DNA from: Methanosarcina sp. 2.H.T.1A.6
GTDB lineage: Archaea > Halobacteriota > Methanosarcinia > Methanosarcinales > Methanosarcinaceae
Direction: 5' to 3'
Length of the DNA stretch: 64,000 nucleotides
NCBI RefSeq assembly: GCF_000979455.1
Contig: NZ_JJOY01000044.1
Location: 1-64,000, forward strand
This document shows, piece by piece, positions 49,458 through 61,536 of the stretch; positions within the stretch are counted from its first letter, which is position 1; each line of letters opens with the position of its first letter. The notes beneath the pieces are model-generated. The model was not told the DNA's origin. It ran no database searches and saw only the letters and a list, made by a program, of their open reading frames with translations. A program made the position numbers and the translations under genes.

Positions 49458-50066
49458 ATGGTTGAGATAGAATACAAAAACACCCGGGTCAAACTCGGAG
49501 CCACAGACCTTGTCTACGAGCCTGCAGAAGACTCCTTTTTGCTTGCTGACGCAACCCTTGAAGAGGCAGAGCCAGGCATGCACATTCTTGAAATCGGGGC
49601 AGGCTCGGGTTTTGTATCTGCCGTGCTCAGGGCAAATATTAAGGGCATCCGCGTGCTTGCAACAGAAATCAACCCCCATGCTGCCCGCTGTGCAAAAGCA
49701 AACGGTGTTGAGGTAATCCGCACAGACCTTTTCAAAGGCCTGAAGCCGGAAAACCGGAAAACCTCTTTTGACCTCATCCTCTTCAACCCGCCCTACCTTC
49801 CCACTTCCGAAGAAGAAAAAGTTCCCGGCTGGTTAAATTATGCTTTTGACGGCGGAGCCAGCGGGCGGGAAACCCTTGACCGGTTTTTAGATGAGGTCAG
49901 GAACTACCTGAGCCCCGGAGGAAAAATTCTGGTTCTGATCTCTTCGATTACGGGGCTTGAAGCTGTGAAGGAGAAAATGGAGAAACTGGGGTTCGAGGTA
50001 GATATTGTGGGAAGAAAAAAGATTTCATTTGAAGAATTGATGGTGGTAAGGGGAAAAATCCTGTAA
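49458..50066 (+). CDS. HemK/Mtq2-like glutamine N5-methyltransferase
   Basis: A 202-residue SAM-dependent enzyme: YEPAEDSFLLADATLE at the start, ILEIGAGSGFVSAVL for SAM, and the catalytic LILFNPPYLPTSEEE motif (NPPY). Relatives methylate the GGQ glutamine of translation termination factors; in archaea this would be aRF1. It starts three bases after the ksgA stop, so it is co-transcribed and probably coupled. Substrate is inferred from family. Confidence 0.88.
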   Translation: MVEIEYKNTRVKLGATDLVYEPAEDSFLLADATLEEAEPGMHILEIGAGSGFVSAVLRANIKGIRVLATEINPHAARCAKANGVEVIRTDLFKGLKPENRKTSFDLILFNPPYLPTSEEEKVPGWLNYAFDGGASGRETLDRFLDEVRNYLSPGGKILVLISSITGLEAVKEKMEKLGFEVDIVGRKKISFEELMVVRGKIL

Positions 50067-50468
50067 GCCTCTTTCTTACCCCGTAAACTATTATTTATCC
50101 TCATACTATTTTTATCCTCATATTATCGGAGTGCCCACAGACTGGCGGGCGACCCATCGAAAGAAAGAATAAGAAAAGGGGGATCCGTTTTTACTTGTTG
50201 TTTTGTCTTCTTTTTATCTCGTTTTCTTTGTAAGACCACTCTCCTGCATCGAGCGTGGCAAAAAAAATAGTGTTACTGTCCATAAGATAGTCCTCTTGAG
50301 CGCAGCGAAAAGGACCGCGTACTGTTGCGATTACATCGCAACTCCCAGGAAATCTTCGATTTCCTGTGATCCCAAAGCGCAATTCGGGCGGCGCAACTCC
50401 TGTCTCTTATACATCGGGAAACAGATATCCAAGAGTAAAAATAAAATACTATTGAAATAAAAATAGCC
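50067..50468. other. Gap containing a dispersed repeat
   Basis: Mostly occupied by the hairpin repeat at 50205-50405. No gene is seen; overlapping frames on both strands here follow the repeat. Confidence 0.6.
50205..50405 (+). repeat. Dispersed hairpin repeat, copy 3
   Basis: TTTGTAAGACCACTCTCCT is followed, after about 60 bases, by a hairpin with arms GTCCT (50290-50294) and AGGAC (50311-50315). Two further self-complementary segments follow (GTTGCGAT/ATCGCAAC and AGGAAATC/GATTTCCT), then GCGCAATTCGGGCGGCGCAA. This is the longest copy. Confidence 0.7.
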
Positions 50469-51368
50469 ATGCAATCATATATAGAACAAAACCCAAAGAG
50501 TATGAGTACCATGACCCCCACAGACAGGGAAAATCCCAGTTACCCGAAATTTATCGTAGGCATAGAACCGCCAGCCGGAAGGACCGAAAAGGCTCTCTGG
50601 TTTATATTCCGGGGCCGTGATGTTCTTCTCAAAATTAAGAAAAATCCCGGAGCTATTCCGAAGCTGCTGGACCCTGGGGAGCTGGGGCTGCCTTCAGTCC
50701 GGGAACAGTACCTTGGTATGCTTGAGGGGAAGCACTGTTTTTCTGTGGAGCTTCCTGAGGATACTCCGGCTCCCGAGGGGATGGAATTTGTTGACCTCAA
50801 GCAGGCACATTCGGAGATCAGTGAAGGGTGCTTTGAGCTTGTAAATAAAGCCGTGCAGATAATGGAGTGGGACAGGACAAACCAGTTCTGCAGCAGGTGC
50901 GGAACAAAGACCTACCGGAAGCCGGGAGAAAGGGGAAAGGAATGCCCTGCCTGCGGAGAGCTTTTCTATCCCCGAATCTCGCCTGCTGTCATTGTGCTTA
51001 TCAGGAAAGGGCATGAGGTTTTACTTGCAAGGTCCCCTGGTTTTCCCAAAGACCTGTACAGCCTGATAGCCGGCTTTGTCGAGCCGGGAGAATCGGCTGA
51101 GGCAGCGGTTGCCAGAGAAGTCTGGGAAGAAGTCGGCATTAGAGTAAAAAACATTACTTACTTCGGGACGCAGGCGTGGCCTTTTCCGAACTCCCTCATG
51201 ATCGGCTTTACTGCAGAATATGATTCAGGGGACATTCGGCCCGACGGGTTTGAAATCGAGGACGCAAAGTGGTTTTCAGCAGATTATCTGCCTGTCCTGC
51301 CCGGAAAGATCAGCATTTCAAGAAAACTGATTGACCACTACCTCAAAGAAGAATGTCTGGAAATTTAA
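50469..51368 (+). CDS. nudC: NAD(H) pyrophosphatase / RNA decapping-type Nudix hydrolase NudC
   Basis: A 299-residue protein. After a variable N-terminal half comes a zinc ribbon (CSRCGTKTYRK, then CPACGELFYP) and the Nudix domain: GFVEPGESAEAAVAREVWEE with the G-x5-E-x7-RE-x-x-EE-x-G box, then the NudC-specific TQAWPFPNSLMIGF (SQPWPFP motif with two changes). The family hydrolyses NADH to NMNH and AMP, and in bacteria removes NAD caps from RNA. The start is uncertain: M1 has no ribosome-binding site, and M12 or M15 are alternatives. Confidence 0.92.
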   Translation: MQSYIEQNPKSMSTMTPTDRENPSYPKFIVGIEPPAGRTEKALWFIFRGRDVLLKIKKNPGAIPKLLDPGELGLPSVREQYLGMLEGKHCFSVELPEDTPAPEGMEFVDLKQAHSEISEGCFELVNKAVQIMEWDRTNQFCSRCGTKTYRKPGERGKECPACGELFYPRISPAVIVLIRKGHEVLLARSPGFPKDLYSLIAGFVEPGESAEAAVAREVWEEVGIRVKNITYFGTQAWPFPNSLMIGFTAEYDSGDIRPDGFEIEDAKWFSADYLPVLPGKISISRKLIDHYLKEECLEI

Positions 51369-51543
51369 GAGCCTATTAAGAGCTTTTGTATTGTTTGATA
51401 AGAAAGTCTCTAATAAGGAAAGTTTCCTAATAAGGAAAGTTTCTGATTCGTTGTGAGTCTGGTTTGAGAAGTTTTTTACTTGAATCCGATTCATTCGACT
51501 GAAACTTTTCGACTGCAACCTTTTTTAGGACTCAGTGGTCCGT
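51369..51543. other. Convergent gap after nudC
   Basis: A doubled TCTAATAAGGAAAGTTTC word at about 51408-51443. No gene. Confidence 0.4.
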
Positions 51544-51855
51544 CTAACGTGTCATCTCCTCGTTTTCCCCTAATACAGCTCCCAGGGCCATCCCCAGGGC
51601 AGGTCCAAGAGCAACTCCCAGGGCTATATTATCCGTCATAATGCCTATTATCAAACCCAATGACATGCCAAGGGCAAGTCCAGACCCCATTGCATTCTCT
51701 TTTCCATTCTCCTTTCCGTCCTCTTTCCCGTAGTTTTTTGTGTATTTTCCGGTCTTATTTACTTTTTTTCCCAGCCGGTAGGAGATAATGAAAAGAGCTA
51801 CAAATGTGATGGCTAAAATTACAATTATTGAGAAAGCAGCTGGATTACTCATCAT
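51544..51855 (-). CDS. Gly-zipper-type small membrane protein
   Basis: A 103-residue protein: one hydrophobic helix near the N-terminus (FSIIVILAITFVALFIISYRLG), a polar Lys/Gly/Glu segment with KEDGKENGKEN repeats, then a Gly/Ala/Leu-rich double helix (GSGLALGMSLGLIIGIM, then ALGVALGPALGMALGAVLGE) with regular small-residue spacing. This looks like a glycine-zipper membrane protein. Function is unknown. Confidence 0.7.
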   Translation of the reverse strand: MMSNPAAFSIIVILAITFVALFIISYRLGKKVNKTGKYTKNYGKEDGKENGKENAMGSGLALGMSLGLIIGIMTDNIALGVALGPALGMALGAVLGENEEMTR

Positions 51856-52126
51856 TCTAAATTTATCACTTTAATATAAAAAGAGTTTGAAGCGGGGGTA
51901 ACTGTCTGGCTGGAAATTATCCCAAATCTCATTTTTTGTATTTTTGCAGTCTTTACATTTTTGCAGTTCCGGCGTATCGCATGAGCTCAATCGAAATCAC
52001 GGAACTTTCTTTCCAAAAACAATATGAAATTAGATCTCATACTCTCTGATTCAGAAGTTTCAGGAAAAAAACCGATAGTACACAGAAGCTTCTGTAAATT
52101 ATGAATCATTCTGTCTCTTTATTATG
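51856..52126. other. Gap before the accessory region
   Basis: No gene seen; ordinary AT-rich sequence. Confidence 0.4.
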
Positions 52127-52440
52127 TTATAAAGAAAAGCCCCATGCAATTAACTGTTTTTTAACATCCCTTAATTCATCATCTGAGAAAGCAAGGCTCT
52201 GATAATGACGCATAGAAGTTAAGGAATCGTGACCCTGCCGCAAACATACAGTAGACTCAACAACTCCGGAAGCAATTACCCAGGACTCCAACGTTTTTCT
52301 ACTTGACTTTACAGAAAGACCATAAGGGTTTATGCCTGCAGATATAGCCCATCTCTGAAGGTTTTTATTCCAGGTACTTTCTAAGGGAGGTCTACGGGCC
52401 TACCAGAAGTCTTCAAGCAAATAACTGAACATGGAAGGCA
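52127..52440 (-). pseudogene. Archaeal tyrosine-integrase 3'-end remnant A
   Basis: Translated on the minus strand, with one frameshift near 52390, this gives SGRPVD, NLQRWAISAGINP, RKTLESWVIASGV, CLRQGHDSLTSMRHYQSLAF and ends DELRDVKKQLIAWGFSL before a TAA at 52129-52127. The Arg (RKTLESW), the H in RQGHD and the Tyr of RHYQ are the end of a tyrosine-recombinase active site. The N-terminal half is missing. It marks one edge of the accessory region. Confidence 0.78.
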
Positions 52441-52528
52441 GAGGATGAATAGTTATTTCAAGCTGTCTCCTTTTGTGCTTCTTCTGTGCTTCTTCCGGCA
52501 GGTGGATTATGTTTCTTTTCTCATTATA

Positions 52529-53137
52529 TCAGTACACAATTTTGATTCCCAGAACCCGCGCAGCAAGTTCTATTGCCTGCCCGGCATTGACTGTAGCCCC
52601 TCTGAGTTCATTGCGTGTATCGGATATTGTGATCCCATCAATGGTACAATCCGATAAGTCGATGTCTTTGAGTAAGGCTTTAAAGAAATCCGCTCCTGCG
52701 AAATTAACCGCCTTCAGCGTGGGCTTCTTTAACCGAATCTCGGATAAGAAAGCTTCCGTAAAATTACAGTCAAGAATGGTGCAGTTTTCCAATACGGAAC
52801 TTGAAAAATCTGCATATCGAAAGGAACCGTCCGCTAAAGAGGTTTCTTTCATGTGGCTCTTGCTGAAGTTGCTGCCATCGCCCTTGCAAGTCAATATTTT
52901 GGAGCCTTTCCAGTAGCTTTCCATAAAACTGCAGTTTGCAAAATTGCAGTTATCAACCACCGAATTGTAAAAGCTGGTTTTTGAAAAATCACATTTGCTG
53001 AACTGGCATTGTATAAACTGTACCGATTCAAATTCAATCCTTGCGATATCGACGTCCGAAAGCACCTCGCCTTCAAAGCGCATCCTTTCTATAAAATTGT
53101 CATCAGATTGTGCGGCTATAATTCTGCTTTCCAACAT
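52529..53137 (-). CDS. Pentapeptide-repeat protein
   Basis: A 202-residue protein with imperfect A(D/N)LxF repeats over about residues 30-180 (CQFSKCDFSKTSFYNSVVDN, CNFANCSFMESYW, FRYADFSSSVLENCTIL, VNFAGADFFKALLKDIDLSD). It should form a right-handed beta-helix. Some such folds mimic DNA and protect gyrase, but this cannot be claimed here. I start it at the ATG at 53137, which has GGAGAT six bases upstream; the upstream ATG at 53167 has none. It is a lone gene just inside the accessory region. Confidence 0.78.
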   Translation of the reverse strand: MLESRIIAAQSDDNFIERMRFEGEVLSDVDIARIEFESVQFIQCQFSKCDFSKTSFYNSVVDNCNFANCSFMESYWKGSKILTCKGDGSNFSKSHMKETSLADGSFRYADFSSSVLENCTILDCNFTEAFLSEIRLKKPTLKAVNFAGADFFKALLKDIDLSDCTIDGITISDTRNELRGATVNAGQAIELAARVLGIKIVY

Positions 53138-53446
53138 ACTTCTATCTCCAGATATTGATGTTTCCAAATGATTAGACTATATAGGATTTACACACTGGTA
53201 GGCTACACCTATAGTTTTTCCGGTTCTGTTGCAAAGATCAACAAACATGGAATAAAAATTTATTATTTTATATTTACGAACTCGAACTTGAAAATTTTCT
53301 GAGTATGGATATCTTTTAATAATCCTATAATAATCCTATTATATACCTAAAAATGACTTAATTATGAAAAAATATACTTTGTATTACCAAAATATTTCCT
53401 ATAATGGGGCACTTTAGTTAATAATGAGATATTCGATGGAGTGCAA
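53138..53446. other. Divergent gap
   Basis: AT-rich; should hold promoters for both flanking genes. TATA-like TATTATATACC at about 53337-53347, about 100 bases before the AbrB-like gene. Confidence 0.4.
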
Positions 53447-53665
53447 ATGGTAAAAATACAATCAGCAAAAAAAGGACAGTATCGCATAGGGATTCCTAAG
53501 GAGATAATCGAGCTCACGGGATGGGATGAAAATACAGAATTACATTTCATCCCATTCTTGGTAAATCCGCTTGATCCTATTACACCAGATACCCCCATAT
53601 TAATTAAGAAAATTTCAAAAGTAGGCATAAGTGGAGATGAACAGCATGAAAATAATAGCACGTAA
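53447..53665 (+). CDS. AbrB/MazE-type small DNA-binding protein
   Basis: A 72-residue protein whose first 40 residues, MVKIQSAKKGQYRIGIPKEI plus IELTGWDENTELHFIP, follow the swapped-hairpin AbrB/MazE/SpoVT pattern (basic K-x-G-x-x-R-I-x-I-P-K, then an acidic loop). The family includes toxin-antitoxin antitoxins and local regulators. Start at 53447 (GGAG four bases before) rather than the GTG at 53441. It overlaps the next gene by about 20 bases, indicating one transcript. Confidence 0.7.
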   Translation: MVKIQSAKKGQYRIGIPKEIIELTGWDENTELHFIPFLVNPLDPITPDTPILIKKISKVGISGDEQHENNST

Positions 53666-53978
53666 CCGCAACGATCAAAATTATTCTCTTAAGGTACAAA
53701 TAATCAAAAGAAAAGTAAATCCTGAGCTTTTGACAGGATTATACTACTCTCAAGTAAAAAATAGCATTAAAAGAAAAATCAAAGATGATACTGAACTATT
53801 ATTAATTAAAATAATCCCTAAGAAATCAATTTCAGAAAAATGGATACTTGAATCCTTTCTTCATCTCCAAAGAGAACTCACATCTGTTATAACTGTTCCC
53901 GAAAACATAGTTAACATGAAAAAAGAAGAATTTGAAGAGTTTGAGCAGGTTTTTGATTGTAATATTTTATTGGATTAA
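53646..53978 (+). CDS. Unknown basic protein downstream of the AbrB-like gene
   Basis: About 110 residues, basic in the first half (KRKVNPELLTGLYYSQVKNS, KRKIKDD), with alternating beta/alpha pattern and a Glu-rich end (KKEEFEEFEQVFDCNILLD). I recognise no family. Its overlap with the AbrB-like gene suggests a bicistron of toxin-antitoxin form, in which this would be the toxin or effector, but no toxin motif is visible. The start is uncertain (53631 GTG, 53637 or 53646). It overlaps the end of the convergent TGT-like gene by four bases. Confidence 0.6.
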   Translation: MKIIARNRNDQNYSLKVQIIKRKVNPELLTGLYYSQVKNSIKRKIKDDTELLLIKIIPKKSISEKWILESFLHLQRELTSVITVPENIVNMKKEEFEEFEQVFDCNILLD

Positions 53979-55078
53979 ACTCTAAATCGAACCGCGATCT
54001 CTTTTGCATACTTCTTTGAGTTAAAATAGCCATCAGATGCATTTTGTTTGATTTTGTCTTGATAGTTATGTGATTCACTCTTATAAGCAAATAATTCATG
54101 TGAGCGAATATTCGCATTTGCCGTGTCAAAATCTTGTACTACTGTACTAACAGTATTATTCCGACAGACAGGACAATTACAGAATTTAGACAATTCCAAA
54201 TCGGTGTTCATATTCTTACATTTCAATGTACTATAATCAATTGGATTGAAGTATTTTGAATCCTGTGACTGCTCAGATTTCTCTTCTTCAGTCTTGCTTT
54301 CGATCTGGAACATGTAATTTCTAGAACTCTTTGGATGTGCTGTTTTTGCGCTTATAGTATCGATACCATAATAATTCAGTAATACACCTAGTGTACCTTT
54401 CCACTTTACAGCCCTATATGATCGTGGAACTGAAAAAGCATGTACCCAAATATCTTCCTGTTTCAGATAATTTTTGATTGCGAATAACAAAGGAGAGTTT
54501 TCTCTTTTTAAATTTACTCCTATACAACTAATTGTATTGTTCTTGTCTTTTAATATCTTAACATCAGATCCCTCATTTGCTATGCCCATTAACTCTTTTT
54601 CGATTCCCTTGAAGCGGCGCCATTCACTAGCTCTATCTAAAACCTTTTTATATTCATCAGTAGAAAATAAATTAGGTATTTCAATAACATCTGCACCGAC
54701 ATCGTCTTGCAGTTGAAACAAGACATCAAGTTTCTGTCCCGAAAGTGTTGGAACACTTTTGTCAAACTCAAAATGAAGTAATTTTCTTTTAACTCCGGAA
54801 TCTGTCATCAGTTTAAGTCGAGACTTCAAATAATTTTTAGTGTCGTTATACTTTTTAGAACTTCCAGAAATCGATGTTAGCGTTTGTAGATTTAACCAGT
54901 GTATATATGTTCCCACATCTACGTTTGGGAAATTAGTACTACTAACAAACGGTGAATTCTTGAGAACATTGATATCTTTTTGATTCGGTAAGTAATCAGG
55001 AGTTTTTATTTTCATACCTTCTATATCTAAAACTCCTTCTCGACCCCCAATATCTGCATTCTTAATTTCGATAACCAT
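53975..55078 (-). CDS. Divergent TGT-superfamily (tRNA-guanine transglycosylase-like) protein
   Basis: A 367-residue protein. LKLMTDSGVKRKLL (residues about 88-101, with D93) and SGQKLDVLFQLQDDVGADVI (113-131) line up with the DSGG and Q-x-x-LGAD parts of TGT. YYGIDTISAKTAH (236-248) lines up with the G-x-D-x-F-D nucleophile loop, but with Ser243 where the nucleophile Asp is expected. FCNCPVC (C300, C302, C305) with H327 or H337 forms the TGT zinc site. So it has the TGT fold, with doubtful or altered catalysis. It is shorter than archaeal TGT, which has extra C-terminal domains. It converges on the AbrB-like operon. DpdA-type DNA-modifying TGT paralogues are the nearest known concept; the role here is unknown. 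Confidence 0.7.
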   Translation of the reverse strand: MVIEIKNADIGGREGVLDIEGMKIKTPDYLPNQKDINVLKNSPFVSSTNFPNVDVGTYIHWLNLQTLTSISGSSKKYNDTKNYLKSRLKLMTDSGVKRKLLHFEFDKSVPTLSGQKLDVLFQLQDDVGADVIEIPNLFSTDEYKKVLDRASEWRRFKGIEKELMGIANEGSDVKILKDKNNTISCIGVNLKRENSPLLFAIKNYLKQEDIWVHAFSVPRSYRAVKWKGTLGVLLNYYGIDTISAKTAHPKSSRNYMFQIESKTEEEKSEQSQDSKYFNPIDYSTLKCKNMNTDLELSKFCNCPVCRNNTVSTVVQDFDTANANIRSHELFAYKSESHNYQDKIKQNASDGYFNSKKYAKEIAVRFRV

Positions 55079-55197
55079 ATTTAACCCTCGTTGATTAATT
55101 GCTGATACTTTACGATCGTCTCTAATTAGAAAACAGTCAAATATTATTTCGTATGATTCCCTATAAAAATGTTCTCATGGACTAGTTTAAAATACAA
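55079..55197. other. Short gap upstream of the TGT-like gene
   Basis: No feature recognised; presumably its promoter. Confidence 0.4.
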
Positions 55198-55485
55198 ATG
55201 CTAATACCGAGAGTCTTCCCTTCCTTCCTGGAAGCTGCTGAATCTTTCCAGATCCGTACCCGTACAGCTTGCAGGCATGAAGGAGTTAATGGCAGGGATG
55301 AATCAGACTCTCAGTATTTCAAGAGGATCCGGAGAGAACAAAAAGCCCACAATGTGACAGCTTCAGAACTTCGTGAAGCTGCAGCCGAATACATAAAATT
55401 TGTACCTGTAACAAGCAATCCTTTATTACTTTTTTATTCCAAATGCTCTGAAAAAACTGAGGTGATTTTATCTATAATACGATAA
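55198..55485 (+). CDS. Weakly supported 95-codon frame
   Basis: A 95-residue frame with a basic centre (RDESDSQYFKRIRREQKAHN) and a helix-like SELREAAAEYIKFV. No recognised family, no clear ribosome-binding site. It may be a remnant within the accessory region. Confidence 0.25.
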   Translation: MLIPRVFPSFLEAAESFQIRTRTACRHEGVNGRDESDSQYFKRIRREQKAHNVTASELREAAAEYIKFVPVTSNPLLLFYSKCSEKTEVILSIIR

Positions 55486-55579
55486 ACAAACAACTACAGG
55501 TACAAGTACATCTTATTAAACAGCCGATATACAAGCTTGATTAACAAACACAAAGATTGAATGAATTATTTACGTACAT

Positions 55580-57499
55580 TTACCTGGTATTATTTTGTCG
55601 CTTCAGCATCCCGGATATGCCAGCAATTCCTATCGGGACAAAAATCCACCCGGCAAGCTCAAGCAAAGTGGCAACTGTTGTAACCTTTATACCTGTCCTT
55701 ATACCCAAGACCCTTATAATGTTTGAGGAGGGGATCCAATTTGTCCCAGATGAGATTTCTATAGGAAGAAAAGTGTTTAAACTTACCCAAAAAGCTTCCA
55801 TATAGGAAAGATGAAGTGGCATTTGCATTTCCAGAATCTGTTCAACCGGTTTAACTGCTCCCTCAAGATTGAAGACAATGGTTCCAAACAAAAGTATGAG
55901 AGCAATTAATAGACCGAGACGATAGAGCTTAACTCCATATCCGGTAACCAACCAGAGGAAACGATCTAATAACCAAGCACCAGGAGTAGTACATAGTGTT
56001 TTTTGAGCCGATTCTAGACGCCTCTGTTCATAGTATACATCATCTGCAAGTTTATCCATTCCAGCCCGACGGAAGGTTACTTCAAGTTGAGTAAAGGGTT
56101 GTCGATCATAAGGATCTAGATGTTTTGTTAATTGTTCCCAAAAGGACACAGGGAAAATTCGATTGTAAATACATCCTCGCAAGTCAATCTTTGCATTGAA
56201 TTGGGTCTCTGGCTCCCCAAAATAGATTGTCTCAAAAGATGTGTTTTCAAAAATGACATCATTGGCAAAGATTGTTTTCTCAAAATGGCTTTCTCTTTGA
56301 ATCAGAGTGCTATTGAAGGTGACTTTTTCTTTAAAATCGGCTCCAATAAACATTGCATTACCTCCGATTCGAGTATTTCCAAATTTAGCCTCACCCTTAA
56401 ATTTTGCCCCAGCAAAATTGGCATCACTTCCGATTCGAGTGCTTCCAAAGTTTGCCTCGCCCTCAAAGGTAGCTGGGAAAAAGGCAGCTGATCCCCCAAT
56501 TTGAATAGCATTGAAGATAGCCTTTCCCTTAAAATAGGCTTCAGTAAATTCGGCATTAATTCCAATTCGAGCTCTTACAAAGTTGACTTCATCCTCAAAG
56601 GTTGTAGATTTAAAGAAAGCAGAGCCTACAATATTGGAACTGTTAAAAATAACCAACCCCTTGAAGTATGATTTTAAAAAATCGGCATTCCTTCCAATTT
56701 GAGTGCTTCCAAAGTTAATCTCATCCTCAAAGATAGCTGATTTAAAGGAAGCGGACTTTTTTATATGGGAATTGTTGAAGATGAGTTTTTCCTTAAAATT
56801 TACTTCATCAAACTCGGCATTCCTTCCAATTTGAGTGCTTCCAAAGTTGGCCTCACCCTCAAAGATAGCTGATTTAAAGAAAGCAGAGCCTTCAATATTG
56901 GAACTGTTAAAAATAACCCCTTTCTTAAAATTGGCTCCAATAAACTCAGCATTATTTCCAATTCGAGCACTTCTAAAATTGACCTCACCCTCAAATTTAC
57001 TCTTATCAAGTTCTATTCTATTTTTGAAATCCCCCATAACAAATATAGTTTGTTTTTTGTAGGTTGCAGATCTACTGTAAAAAATTCCTGTTACATTAAT
57101 GTCAGAAAAGTTTGCAACCCCTGAAAACGTTACATTATTCAGAACTATATCTTTGTTCACTAAGACTGAAATGAAGGTAGCATCAGTTTCAAATATCGAG
57201 TTCTCAAAGCTCAAGACTTTTTTGAAAGTAGAATATGAACAATCCAAAGGACCTCTGATTTTTGTCTGCTGAATAGAAACCTTGCTTTCGACATTAACAG
57301 ACTTAAGGATGAAAGGTCCTTCAATCACTGCATTAATGATCTCGACCTCTTTTCCATTCTTGATGGCTTCTACAATCTCTTCTGCATCAATTGGATTTTC
57401 TTCCTTTTTTTTATAGTCCCAATCATCTGGGTAAATATACCTTAAAAGAGAAGGAGTTACTTCCTTATTTGCTGTTTCATTCATGGTGTTGTTCTTCAT
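55580..57499 (-). CDS. Pentapeptide-repeat protein with C-terminal channel-like membrane domain
   Basis: A 639-residue protein. Residues about 60-430 are pentapeptide-like repeats in a clear higher-order period of roughly 40 residues (NFGSTQIGRNAEF, VIFNSSNIEGSAFFKS, AIFEGEANF). A linker follows (WEQLTKHLDPYDRQPFTQLE, RRAGMDKLADDVYYEQRR). The last 150 residues have three to four hydrophobic helices (LYRLGLLIALILLFGTIVFN, a WVSLNTFLPIEI segment resembling a pore loop, and a C-terminal pair). Such fusions of a beta-helix to a two-span channel-like module are known but uncharacterised. Confidence 0.75.
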   Translation of the reverse strand: MKNNTMNETANKEVTPSLLRYIYPDDWDYKKKEENPIDAEEIVEAIKNGKEVEIINAVIEGPFILKSVNVESKVSIQQTKIRGPLDCSYSTFKKVLSFENSIFETDATFISVLVNKDIVLNNVTFSGVANFSDINVTGIFYSRSATYKKQTIFVMGDFKNRIELDKSKFEGEVNFRSARIGNNAEFIGANFKKGVIFNSSNIEGSAFFKSAIFEGEANFGSTQIGRNAEFDEVNFKEKLIFNNSHIKKSASFKSAIFEDEINFGSTQIGRNADFLKSYFKGLVIFNSSNIVGSAFFKSTTFEDEVNFVRARIGINAEFTEAYFKGKAIFNAIQIGGSAAFFPATFEGEANFGSTRIGSDANFAGAKFKGEAKFGNTRIGGNAMFIGADFKEKVTFNSTLIQRESHFEKTIFANDVIFENTSFETIYFGEPETQFNAKIDLRGCIYNRIFPVSFWEQLTKHLDPYDRQPFTQLEVTFRRAGMDKLADDVYYEQRRLESAQKTLCTTPGAWLLDRFLWLVTGYGVKLYRLGLLIALILLFGTIVFNLEGAVKPVEQILEMQMPLHLSYMEAFWVSLNTFLPIEISSGTNWIPSSNIIRVLGIRTGIKVTTVATLLELAGWIFVPIGIAGISGMLKRQNNTR

Positions 57500-58052
57500 T
57501 TTATTGGGTAGAAGTTTTATAAAAATGTAATAAACTTGTATTCATTTATACCTTTATTAATTTATTTATAATCATCTTAATAGGTGAATTATACTGTAAA
57601 ATTTAAAAGAGTGGTATTTTTAGACATTACCTATATCCCATAAATTTAGTGCAATGAGTGAAATTCGAACCCATGAAATATTTCAATGACAGTTCTAGGA
57701 AATTAGCATGCTACCAGAATTTTTAATTTTTTCAAAAAACTCACCTCTGCATGAATAGCTCAGAAGCCCGTCTAAAGTCCACAGAGAGCTGTTCTTTTTC
57801 CTTCGGCTTATCCCGGTTTATGGTCTGATTTCTTAAAGGTCATCTGGAGAGCTCCAGAAAAACCGCTTAAGGAAACGGTAATGTATGAGACCTACAGCGA
57901 AAATAGGTAGTGAAACTAAAAAAAGGAAATATATCGTACTGTAGATTGTATTGAATAGAGGTGTAAATTTGGGAAACAGATATCAGATAACAGATTTTGA
58001 AACATAGAAAAGAAAAGAGTATTGTCAAATATACAGGAGTGTGGTGCAGCTC
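57500..58052. other. Region without recognised genes
   Basis: AT-rich. No frame is convincing. A fragment at 57665-57685 resembles a tRNA T-arm but fails on pairing (see rejected list). Confidence 0.45.
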
Positions 58053-58598
58053 CAATATTGTGTGAGTTTTGAACTTGATGTGACAAATTTTAAAAAGCAT
58101 GTTAAATAAAATAACTGGCCATTTACGATGGCGTTTATATTTGCTGTTACAAAATGTGCAAATGAAATCAAGGAGTCTCGATATCGTTTTCTTGATGGTG
58201 AAGTTGTGTTATATGAATCCATTGACACGTCATTTACATATCTGGATAAAGAAACAAAATTATTTAAGGTAGTAAATGTACTCATGTAGGATACGATTGA
58301 GAAGTTTGTACAACTGGCAATCGTAACGGCAGAAAATCAAAAAGAACCTTTTACAGAGCCTGTAGAAAACGATGTATATCAATTCTCTGCCTTGCCGTGG
58401 ATAACATTTACGCATATTTCGCACACGGATTTCGGAAACAGGGAAAAAGCGCAGCCCATATTTGATTGGGGAAAATATCATGAAAGAGAAGACAAATTAA
58501 TGATGCCATTTGCAGTCCAGGTTCATCATGCATTTGTTGGCGGTATTCATATTGGCAAACTTGCGGATAAGCTTCAGAGATACCTGGATGAAGTGTAG
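58053..58598 (+). pseudogene. Chloramphenicol acetyltransferase (CatA-type) pseudogene
   Basis: Translation from about 58053 gives QYCVSFELDVTNFKKHVK, a stop, then NNWPFTMAFIFAVTKCANEI, YRFLDGEVVLYESIDTSFTY, a TAG at 58287, then LPWITFTHISHTDFGNREKA and VQVHHAFVGGIHIGKLADKL. The order and spacing match type A CAT, including the catalytic HHAF motif. The usual Asp two residues after it is Gly (HHAFVGG), the N-terminus is lost, and there are two in-frame stops. It is clearly dead. Its origin is bacterial, supporting gene transfer into this region. Confidence 0.85.
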
Positions 58599-59018
58599 AT
58601 AATACGCATGATGGAAGGATCAGTAGTTCACTAATCATTCTTTTTCTTAAAGTTGTGTCTTCAGAATACATAGGTTTTACCTTAAAACCTGTGTATTCTT
58701 ACTCCATAAAAATTAATTCTCCGAACCCACAAAGGAAATTTAAAAAAATTCTTATTTTCATGCCAACCAGATAATGTCGTACGAAAAATTTCAATCAAAA
58801 CTTACATTTTTGAGTTTTGTATAGAAAGTCGGAATGATTAATAAGAGTGCAAGTTATGGGATATTATATAGAGAATTTTTCTATTAAATATTTTAAATGT
58901 TGTTGAGAAATTAATTGCTGAACAATATTCAAAAACGAGATATTTAGGGGTTGCAAACATGCCTGGACTTGAGTCCGGGGTATAGTGAATACAAACTTAT
59001 AGTGAATACAAATTAGAA
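58599..59018. other. Gap upstream of the hydrolase
   Basis: Holds the hairpin below and a TATA-like ATATTATATAGAG at about 58860-58872. A doubled ATAGTGAATACAAA word lies just before the hydrolase start. Confidence 0.5.
58664..58698 (+). terminator. 16-bp hairpin after the catA remnant
   Basis: GAATACATAGGTTTTA (58664-58679) pairs with TAAAACCTGTGTATTC (58683-58698), with one G-T and a three-base loop. There is no T-run after it. It may be the old catA terminator or a symmetric bidirectional one. Confidence 0.5.
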
Positions 59019-59999
59019 GTGGTATTCTTGAAAGAAGTTAAGAAAATAATTAGGAATATTTCACTAATTATATTGGCATTTTTAATTTGTTCAACTTTTA
59101 TGCTAATTGCTCTAACTTATCCGAATTACCACGAGACGATGACGGAAGCACAAAAGCAATTGCTTGCGAACAGTAATATTTTAAAAACAGAATATGGGGA
59201 TATTGAGTATTCTGTAGAGGGAGAAGGGACGCCTGTATTATTGCTACATGGCGCGGGAGGCGGCTATGATCAGGGACTCTGGGCGGGCAAAGTATTTTTC
59301 GGGGACGGGTATAAATTCGTCTCGGTTTCACGATATGGTTATCTTCGATCATCCATTCCGGATAATGCTTCAATTGAATCGCAAGCTGCTGCGTATGAAG
59401 CTCTTCTGGATAATTTAAGCATAGATAAAATAACTGTTGTTGGCGTATCCGCTGGAGGTCCGTCAGCCACTCAGTTTGCAAACGACTATCCTGACAGATG
59501 CTCAGCATTGATATTGATTTCTGCTGTAAGTATGGGCCCGGCACCAGGTGACCAGGATCCTTTTTATGTTAGTATTATTCACACTATCCAGCAATCTGAT
59601 TATGCATACTGGCTCGTCACAAGATTTTTTCAATCTACAATTCTGGACCTTATGGGAATTCCAACACAGGTGTACGAAGCATTTAATCCGGAACAGAAAG
59701 AACTGGCACAGGAAATGCTTGATATAATGCATCCGATGTCTCAAAGGTATAAAGGCACCATAAACGATGAAAAAATGATTGAATTTTATACCGTACCTGC
59801 AAGCAATCTTCGTGCACCAACATTAATTATCCACGCTAAAGATGATGCGCTGGTAAGTTACAAACATGCGGAAAATGCTCACAGTAAGATAAACCAGTCG
59901 CAACTGGTCTTATATGATACCGGAGGTCATGGAATGTTATCTCAAATGAACGGGACGAGAGTGCTTATGAAAGAATTTCTAAATGAATCCACCTATTAA
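59019..59999 (+). CDS. Membrane-anchored alpha/beta hydrolase
   Basis: A 326-residue protein with an N-terminal hydrophobic anchor (ISLIILAFLICSTFMLIALT), then an alpha/beta-hydrolase fold. The oxyanion-hole HG is in LLLHGAGGGYDQGLW, the nucleophile elbow is GVSAGG (Ser about 146), an acid likely lies in IIHAKDDALVS, and the catalytic His is in DTGGHGMLSQ. The substrate is unknown. Start is GTG at 59019, with an alternative TTG nine bases later. Composition and domain style resemble Gram-positive bacterial hydrolases, and a second hydrolase fragment lies 1.5 kb downstream. Confidence 0.85.
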   Translation: MVFLKEVKKIIRNISLIILAFLICSTFMLIALTYPNYHETMTEAQKQLLANSNILKTEYGDIEYSVEGEGTPVLLLHGAGGGYDQGLWAGKVFFGDGYKFVSVSRYGYLRSSIPDNASIESQAAAYEALLDNLSIDKITVVGVSAGGPSATQFANDYPDRCSALILISAVSMGPAPGDQDPFYVSIIHTIQQSDYAYWLVTRFFQSTILDLMGIPTQVYEAFNPEQKELAQEMLDIMHPMSQRYKGTINDEKMIEFYTVPASNLRAPTLIIHAKDDALVSYKHAENAHSKINQSQLVLYDTGGHGMLSQMNGTRVLMKEFLNESTY

Positions 60000-60223
60000 A
60001 CCGTGTGGAATTGAACATTCAACTAACCTATTTCCAAAGGCTGTTGGGGCTTGACAGGCTGAGATATGGGAGGATCTCCTTAAGTTGCACTATGGGATTA
60101 TCTCAGAAAGCCAGATGTAAACAAATATAGCTAAAGATTTTAATTTTGATGTGAAAGTGGAGTAATTTATATTATCAGTCATTGCAGAGACGGATTTATT
60201 TTGGAAGGGAGGAGAAAACGACA
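60000..60223. other. Hydrolase-GNAT gap
   Basis: No gene seen; GGGAGGAG before the next ATG. Confidence 0.4.
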
Positions 60224-61435: not shown

Positions 61436-61536
61436 TTATAACGAAAATCCCCATGCCATCAACCGTTTTTTAATTTCCCTTAATTCATCATCCTGAAAGG
61501 TGAGGCCCTGATAATGACGCAGAGAATTAAGGAAAA
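61436..61536 (-). pseudogene. Tyrosine-integrase 3'-end remnant B
   Basis: The minus strand reads LRHYQGLTFQDDELREIKKR plus LMAWGFSL and a TAA at 61438-61436. About 100 bases are similar to remnant A (52127-52231) in the same orientation. The similarity stops near 61536 inside GAATTAAGGA, where hydrolase-like sequence begins. Confidence 0.75.

Follow-up and report, generated by a model that had tools for sequence, protein, structure and literature searches.

The window (the whole 64,000-nucleotide stretch of Methanosarcina sp. 2.H.T.1A.6 DNA that was analysed) contains a gene for a TGT-like protein that is present in a single copy in the genome and, converging on it, a gene for a small partner protein, together with an AbrB-like small ORF and two fragments of a tyrosine recombinase (Table 1). 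The resemblance to TGT noticed in a first-pass annotation of the sequence is borne out by matches to TIGR00432 (TgtA; E 4.6e-6, 25 bits, below the cut-off of 350) and PF01702 (E 0.0014, 18 bits, below the cut-off of 26), and the C-terminal domains of archaeal TgtA are, as that annotation stated, missing from the 367-aa protein. Searches of PADLOC and PHROGs gave no match to the protein, searches of PDB (phmmer and profile searches) gave nothing beyond a weak match to TgtA and irrelevant proteins, searches of phages, plasmids, and viral contigs gave no relatives, and no Rfam RNA was found within positions 50000-60000.

Table 1. Features of the TGT-like locus and codons of interest in the window
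Feature	Position	Strand	Basis or comment
TGT-like protein, 367 aa, nucleophile predicted lost	53975..55078	-	ORF; TIGR00432 E 4.6e-6; A+B+C profile vs TgtA 96.5%, 294 columns
Convergent partner, 115 aa; start probably ATG 53646 (orthologue alignment)	53631..53978	+	tail-to-tail at three unlinked loci
Shared TTAA with both stop codons, 4-bp 3' overlap	53975..53978		direct sequence reading
AbrB-like small ORF, 74 aa	53441..53665	+	phrog_661 E 2.6e-5, TIGR01439 E 0.03; weak
Tyrosine recombinase remnant, C-terminal 131 aa	52136..52528	-	82% identity to G086:C5 element integrase
Second, shorter fragment of same recombinase	61445..61531	-	72% over 29 aa; 85% nt repeat
Ser243 codon at TGT nucleophilic Asp position	54350..54352	-	11/12 alignments
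Asp240 codon, GxD Asp	54359..54361	-	conserved in TgtA and 12/12 aligned members
Glu133 codon at LDIP base-binding Asp position of TgtA	54680..54682	-	alignment
Asp93 codon (TDSG)	54800..54802	-	unconserved: D/D/K/S across window, L002, L003, L015
Zinc ligands C300-x-C302-xx-C305	54164..54181	-	invariant in families A and B; absent in C
His327, fourth zinc ligand	54098..54100	-	aligned with TgtA His in 12/12 members

Two further genomes of the genus, G082 and G086 (Methanosarcina sp. UBA289), encode orthologues with 63% identity to the TGT-like protein, so that the gene is present in 3 of the 112 genomes of the host family. Comparison of the gene with these orthologues yields dN of about 0.23-0.27 and dS of 1.25-1.6; dN is far smaller than dS, indicating strong purifying selection, and we conclude that the TGT-like gene is a working gene. 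The convergent partner gene, which encodes 110-115 aa across the three Methanosarcina genomes and is itself under purifying selection, occurs, among 238 genomes, in the same three genomes as the TGT-like gene, with one further, solo paralogue. The convergent, overlapping arrangement recurs at the sister loci (the same arrangement at L002; a 10-bp overlap at L003), and the surroundings of the pair at the three loci are unrelated. A match to the partner in another genome (G112, E 0.006, 27 residues) and matches of the partner to Rep_N and Specificity_I were taken as chance and rejected. The AbrB-like ORF has no equivalent among ORFs of at least 60 aa at L002 and L003, and we conclude that it lies outside the TGT-like/partner unit. 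The AbrB-type bicistron described in the first-pass annotation thus does not stand as a unit, its AbrB-like member being weak and unmatched among those sister-locus ORFs, but its second gene, at 53631-53978, is a conserved neighbour of the TGT-like gene.

The TGT-like/partner pair has moved horizontally. Its GC content is low (34% and 29% for the pair vs. 51% for TgtA), and for the TGT-like gene the comparison with TgtA of the same genome (GC 34% and GC3 28% vs. 51% and 54%) substantiates the earlier description of the DNA as accessory. Between the window genome and G082, dS is 0.285 for TgtA vs. 1.25 for the TGT-like gene, indicating that the TGT-like copies were not vertically inherited. A recombinase remnant lies 1.1 kb from the partner gene in the window; the intact copy of this recombinase matches PF00589 with E 7e-10. 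In G086:C16, the pair is flanked by fragments of the Rep and peptidase genes of an element that is present in G086:C5. The G086:C5 element (L070:3178-11446) encodes an ORF2/G2P-type Rep, an A24 peptidase, a tyrosine recombinase, and the solo partner paralogue, and has no TGT-like gene. Two genes with pentapeptide repeats lie near the pair in the window. One, at 52533-53262, belongs to the Methanosarcina core and is shared at about 86-93% nucleotide identity by most genomes of that genus; in several other genomes it lies between segments matching about 57.9-58.7 kb and about 58.7-60.8 kb of the window, and in the window it is displaced by about 5.4 kb and adjoins the recombinase remnant. The other, at 55583-57499 in the accessory stretch adjoining the TGT-like gene, encodes a protein of 639 aa that contains many pentapeptide repeats and is hydrophobic in its C-terminal region, and over most of its length it has no close DNA match in 30 other Methanosarcina genomes.

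Profile comparisons place the window protein in a previously unnamed archaeal family of TGT-related proteins, a placement that we draw from sequence. We define family A as the Methanosarcina trio (window, L002, and L003) and a relative in G487 with 33-34% identity, and, by recruitment through profile searches, family B (L009, L010, L011, and L014), family C (L016-L019), and a probable family D (L080-L082). Families A and B are linked at 99.4% over 332 columns, and families B and C at 99.8%. Membership of family D is probable, resting on its Panacea-like neighbour, the sequence link to the other TGT-like families being weak (23%). In hhalign, the combined A+B+C profile matches archaeal TgtA at 96.5% (E 7.6e-10, 294 columns) and bacterial-type Tgt at 80%; family A by itself gives only a weak match to TgtA in local mode (14%). 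The chain of homology to TgtA therefore appears good for families A-C, although weak in local mode for family A by itself. The results support the first-pass view of a divergent TGT relative in accessory DNA with its nucleophile lost, and extend it to a whole archaeal family. Weak matches in G246, G371, and G462 (frames of 488-616 aa) were left out as probably TgtA or ArcS. In G487 (L026:6390-8867), two TGT-like genes stand in tandem, the second being C-terminally truncated and without the zinc site.

The nucleophilic Asp of TGT is Asp280 in Z. mobilis and Asp279 in QTRT1. We assessed residue equivalence in 12 alignments (three MAFFT modes with each of four sequence sets), and in 11 of these Ser243 of the window protein occupies the position of the nucleophilic Asp, confirming what had been read by eye. 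In the same 11 alignments, no family member has Asp at this position: the residues are Ser, Asn, Ser, and Asn in family A, Ser, Ser, Ser, and Ala in family B, and Ala, Ser, and Ser in family C, with a gap or Leu in L018. The one remaining alignment is global and puts the nucleophile region in the wrong place; the AlphaFold model of the TGT-like protein, obtained from two input sequences, has a pLDDT of 36 and is unusable (that of the 115-aa partner has a pLDDT of 42). The matching of residues is therefore based on sequence. The position of the LDIP Asp has Glu in family A and Ser, Ala, Thr, or Cys in the other families, and most placements put Asn, Arg, Pro, or Asp at the position of the VQG Gln. 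The TDSG motif with Asp93, counted in the first-pass annotation as a kept landmark, is not one: the orthologues have KDAG and DKAG, the next relative has SP, and outside family A the motif has no stable alignment, its placement differing among alignments. The Q-x-x-VGAD motif is kept in the closest orthologues (LQ..VGAD) and becomes looser farther out. The zinc site holds up better, with C300, C302, C305, and H327 invariant in the near family; in family C the His is kept and the Cys residues are gone. We conclude that the TGT-like protein is, as predicted from these alignments, catalytically disarmed, with the nucleophile lost throughout the family. Because none of the three Asp residues (nucleophile, base-binding, and acid/base) is conserved, the base-exchange system suggested earlier is disfavoured.

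The TGT-like protein is not the housekeeping enzyme. TIGR00432 has a match above cut-off in 11 of 12 host genomes searched, most of which also have an ArcS-like second match (the twelfth, G374, has only lower-scoring TGT matches), indicating that the housekeeping role is already filled. The protein shares with TgtA (TIGR00432, PF01702) a colinear catalytic domain, the N-terminal GR.G.L...TP box, the CxCxxC and His zinc site, and the GxD motif; it differs from TgtA in having Ser or Asn for the nucleophilic Asp and Glu for the LDIP Asp, in lacking conserved TDSG and VQG motifs and the C-terminal domains, and in coexisting with a normal TgtA encoded elsewhere in the genome. The retention of zinc with loss of catalytic Asp in families A and B is reminiscent of QTRT2, the noncatalytic subunit of eukaryotic TGT, which has kept its zinc site and lost both catalytic Asp residues (PMC6165067). 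However, QTRT2 acts on tRNA as a dimer with a catalytic TGT, whereas the TGT-like gene is not linked to a catalytic TGT and differs in genomic setting and in sequence. With DpdA, the protein shares a TGT-like character and a location in accessory or mobile DNA. The relation to DpdA raised in the first-pass annotation is nevertheless unsupported: DSGAFSA and DSSSW, with both Asp residues, are retained in the DpdA proteins of 9g, CAjan, and other phages, and neither motif is present in the TGT-like family. Profile comparison, which relates the family to TgtA, gives no similarity to DpdA; DpdA itself reaches just 4% against the TgtA profile, making the motif test the informative one. No preQ0, dpd, or queC gene lies near the window gene, in agreement with the earlier statement that 7-deazaguanine genes are not adjacent.

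The distant relatives point to toxin-antitoxin (TA) and restriction-like settings, at about 20% identity to the window protein. Families B, C, and D are represented by 11 loci, and in each of these a Panacea/DarG-C-terminal-like protein is encoded upstream (PF13274 0.004-0.07, below Pfam cut-offs; DarG model 6.5e-6; PADLOC candidate PDC-M19A 1.3e-9), the versions in families B/C and in family D being linked to each other at 98.8%. In families B and C the TGT-like gene comes immediately after the Panacea-like gene or overlaps it. Each family has an additional gene: DUF4258-like in family B (fused in L011; PF14076 1e-6), a Zn-ribbon gene in family C, and, in family D, a gene read as PIN-like from acidic motifs (PF11848 DUF3368, E 0.06 in one member and no match in the others); in L080 and L082 of family D, the Panacea-like protein carries a UPF0175 segment at its C-terminus. 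In G374 (L028:5548-13113), the TGT-like gene is part of a type I restriction operon with the order hsdR-hsdM-Zn-Panacea-TGT-like-hsdS, and in G441 (L030:4889-9971) the order is hsdM-Zn-Panacea-TGT-like-hsdS, with hsdM and hsdS verified. In G317, the cassette is followed by genes for UvrD, an N6/N4 methylase, and a ResIII protein. The genes of the hsd-embedded three-gene cassettes (L028 and L030) have short overlaps. In G138 (L033:6089-8925), queC overlaps by 4 bp a gene for a DUF4258-Zn-Panacea fusion that precedes the TGT-like gene. The relatives' loci thus resemble Panacea (SocA/DUF4065) TA systems and DarTG in that the TGT-like gene follows a Panacea/DarG-C-terminal-like gene, often with a PIN-like or DUF4258-like gene. 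Unlike those TA systems, the window locus has no Panacea-domain gene; this gene is also absent at L002 and L003, a nuclease neighbour is absent at the window locus as well, and the 115-aa partner has no match to Panacea-like proteins or DUF4258. In two papers on Panacea systems the main text makes no mention of TGT or transglycosylase, and in the open-licence literature we found no description of TGT combined with toxin-antitoxin, Panacea, and DUF4258.

According to the reading that we prefer, and that we believe about as strongly as we doubt, the protein is related to TGT but can no longer carry out normal base exchange, and small mobile TA/restriction-related modules have taken it up as a component that binds or senses. 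Loss of the key reactive residue, together with the presence of distant relatives in TA-like and restriction operons, suggests that it is probably a binder, not a base swapper. The remodelled pocket would still bind a ligand (a protein terminus, a nucleobase, or a modified base in tRNA or DNA), ligand binding would control the partner protein, the 115-aa convergent gene would in Methanosarcina take the place of the Panacea-type partner, and the module would serve defence or addiction. The suggestion in the first-pass annotation of a recognition system new to its setting survives in this form as the best reading, with the setting shifted by the relatives towards TA/restriction-like operons. In a narrower form, which we advance tentatively, the archaeal loci would be defence/TA modules in which a dead TGT-fold protein senses a nucleic-acid base (for example, 7-deazaguanine in viral DNA, or a tRNA state) and, in doing so, frees a nuclease under Panacea control or assists a restriction complex, and the Methanosarcina pair would be a stripped-down, mobile version.

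The same operons could be read with the TGT-like protein as the toxic or effector enzyme of a TA pair, of non-transglycosylation chemistry, that is neutralised by the Panacea-like protein in the relatives or by the 115-aa protein in Methanosarcina. Toxin domains of many unrelated kinds are neutralised by Panacea antitoxins (PMC8832971), families B and C have the TGT-like gene directly after, or overlapping, the Panacea-like gene, and the Methanosarcina pair is strictly paired, mobile, and low in GC; but the operons of families B and D already have another toxin-like gene (DUF4258-like or PIN-like), a convergent orientation is unusual for a type II pair, and no conserved new set of catalytic residues was found. 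We regard this reading as unlikely. It is improbable that the protein instead performs active base exchange on tRNA or DNA through a shifted nucleophile such as Asp240 or Asp93. Asp240 is indeed present in 12 of 12 aligned members, but it corresponds to an Asp that TgtA carries besides its nucleophile; Asp93 gives way to Lys or Ser in relatives, and neither the LDIP Asp nor the VQG Gln is retained. The one family member in an operon directly downstream of QueC, in G138, would suit an active enzyme, but this QueC is the sole canonical copy in its genome and may simply be a housekeeping gene.

We give similarly little credence to the proposal that the pair is cargo of an integrative element, with a part in the biology of the element itself (for example, in its protection or regulation) and unrelated to defence: remnants of elements near the pair in the window and in G086, and the partner paralogue within an element, are as this proposal would have it, but families B and C reside in restriction or TA-like operons and not in recognisable elements. 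Still less probable, in our estimation, is a reader of 7-deazaguanine-conjugated proteins like Cap10 of type IV CBASS, a member of the TGT family that has been reshaped to bind the deazaguanylated N-terminus of a protein (PMC11996544). Cap10 offers a precedent for reuse of a TGT-family protein as a binder in a defence setting. However, the TGT-like loci are without a CD-NTase and Cap9: the window genome gives no match to the SMODS CD-NTase, and a few relatives give weak SMODS matches off the contig of the TGT-like gene, except in the single-contig G388, in which the match is far away. A QueC/Cap9-like neighbour is absent, including at the window locus, except in G138, and the partners lack the N-terminal Met-Gly that NDG conjugation requires (PMC13279940).

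TGT has already been recruited as a tRNA-positioning subunit (QTRT2), as a DNA modifier (DpdA), and as a protein-binding immune factor (Cap10). If the preferred reading, of a binding or sensing component of mobile modules, is correct, the family would represent a further, independent recruitment of the TGT fold, in the form of a widespread archaeal branch without the nucleophile, linked with Panacea-like proteins, restriction operons, and genes of DUF4258-like or PIN-like type, and would provide a testable candidate for the sensing of a nucleobase or tRNA by archaeal modules.
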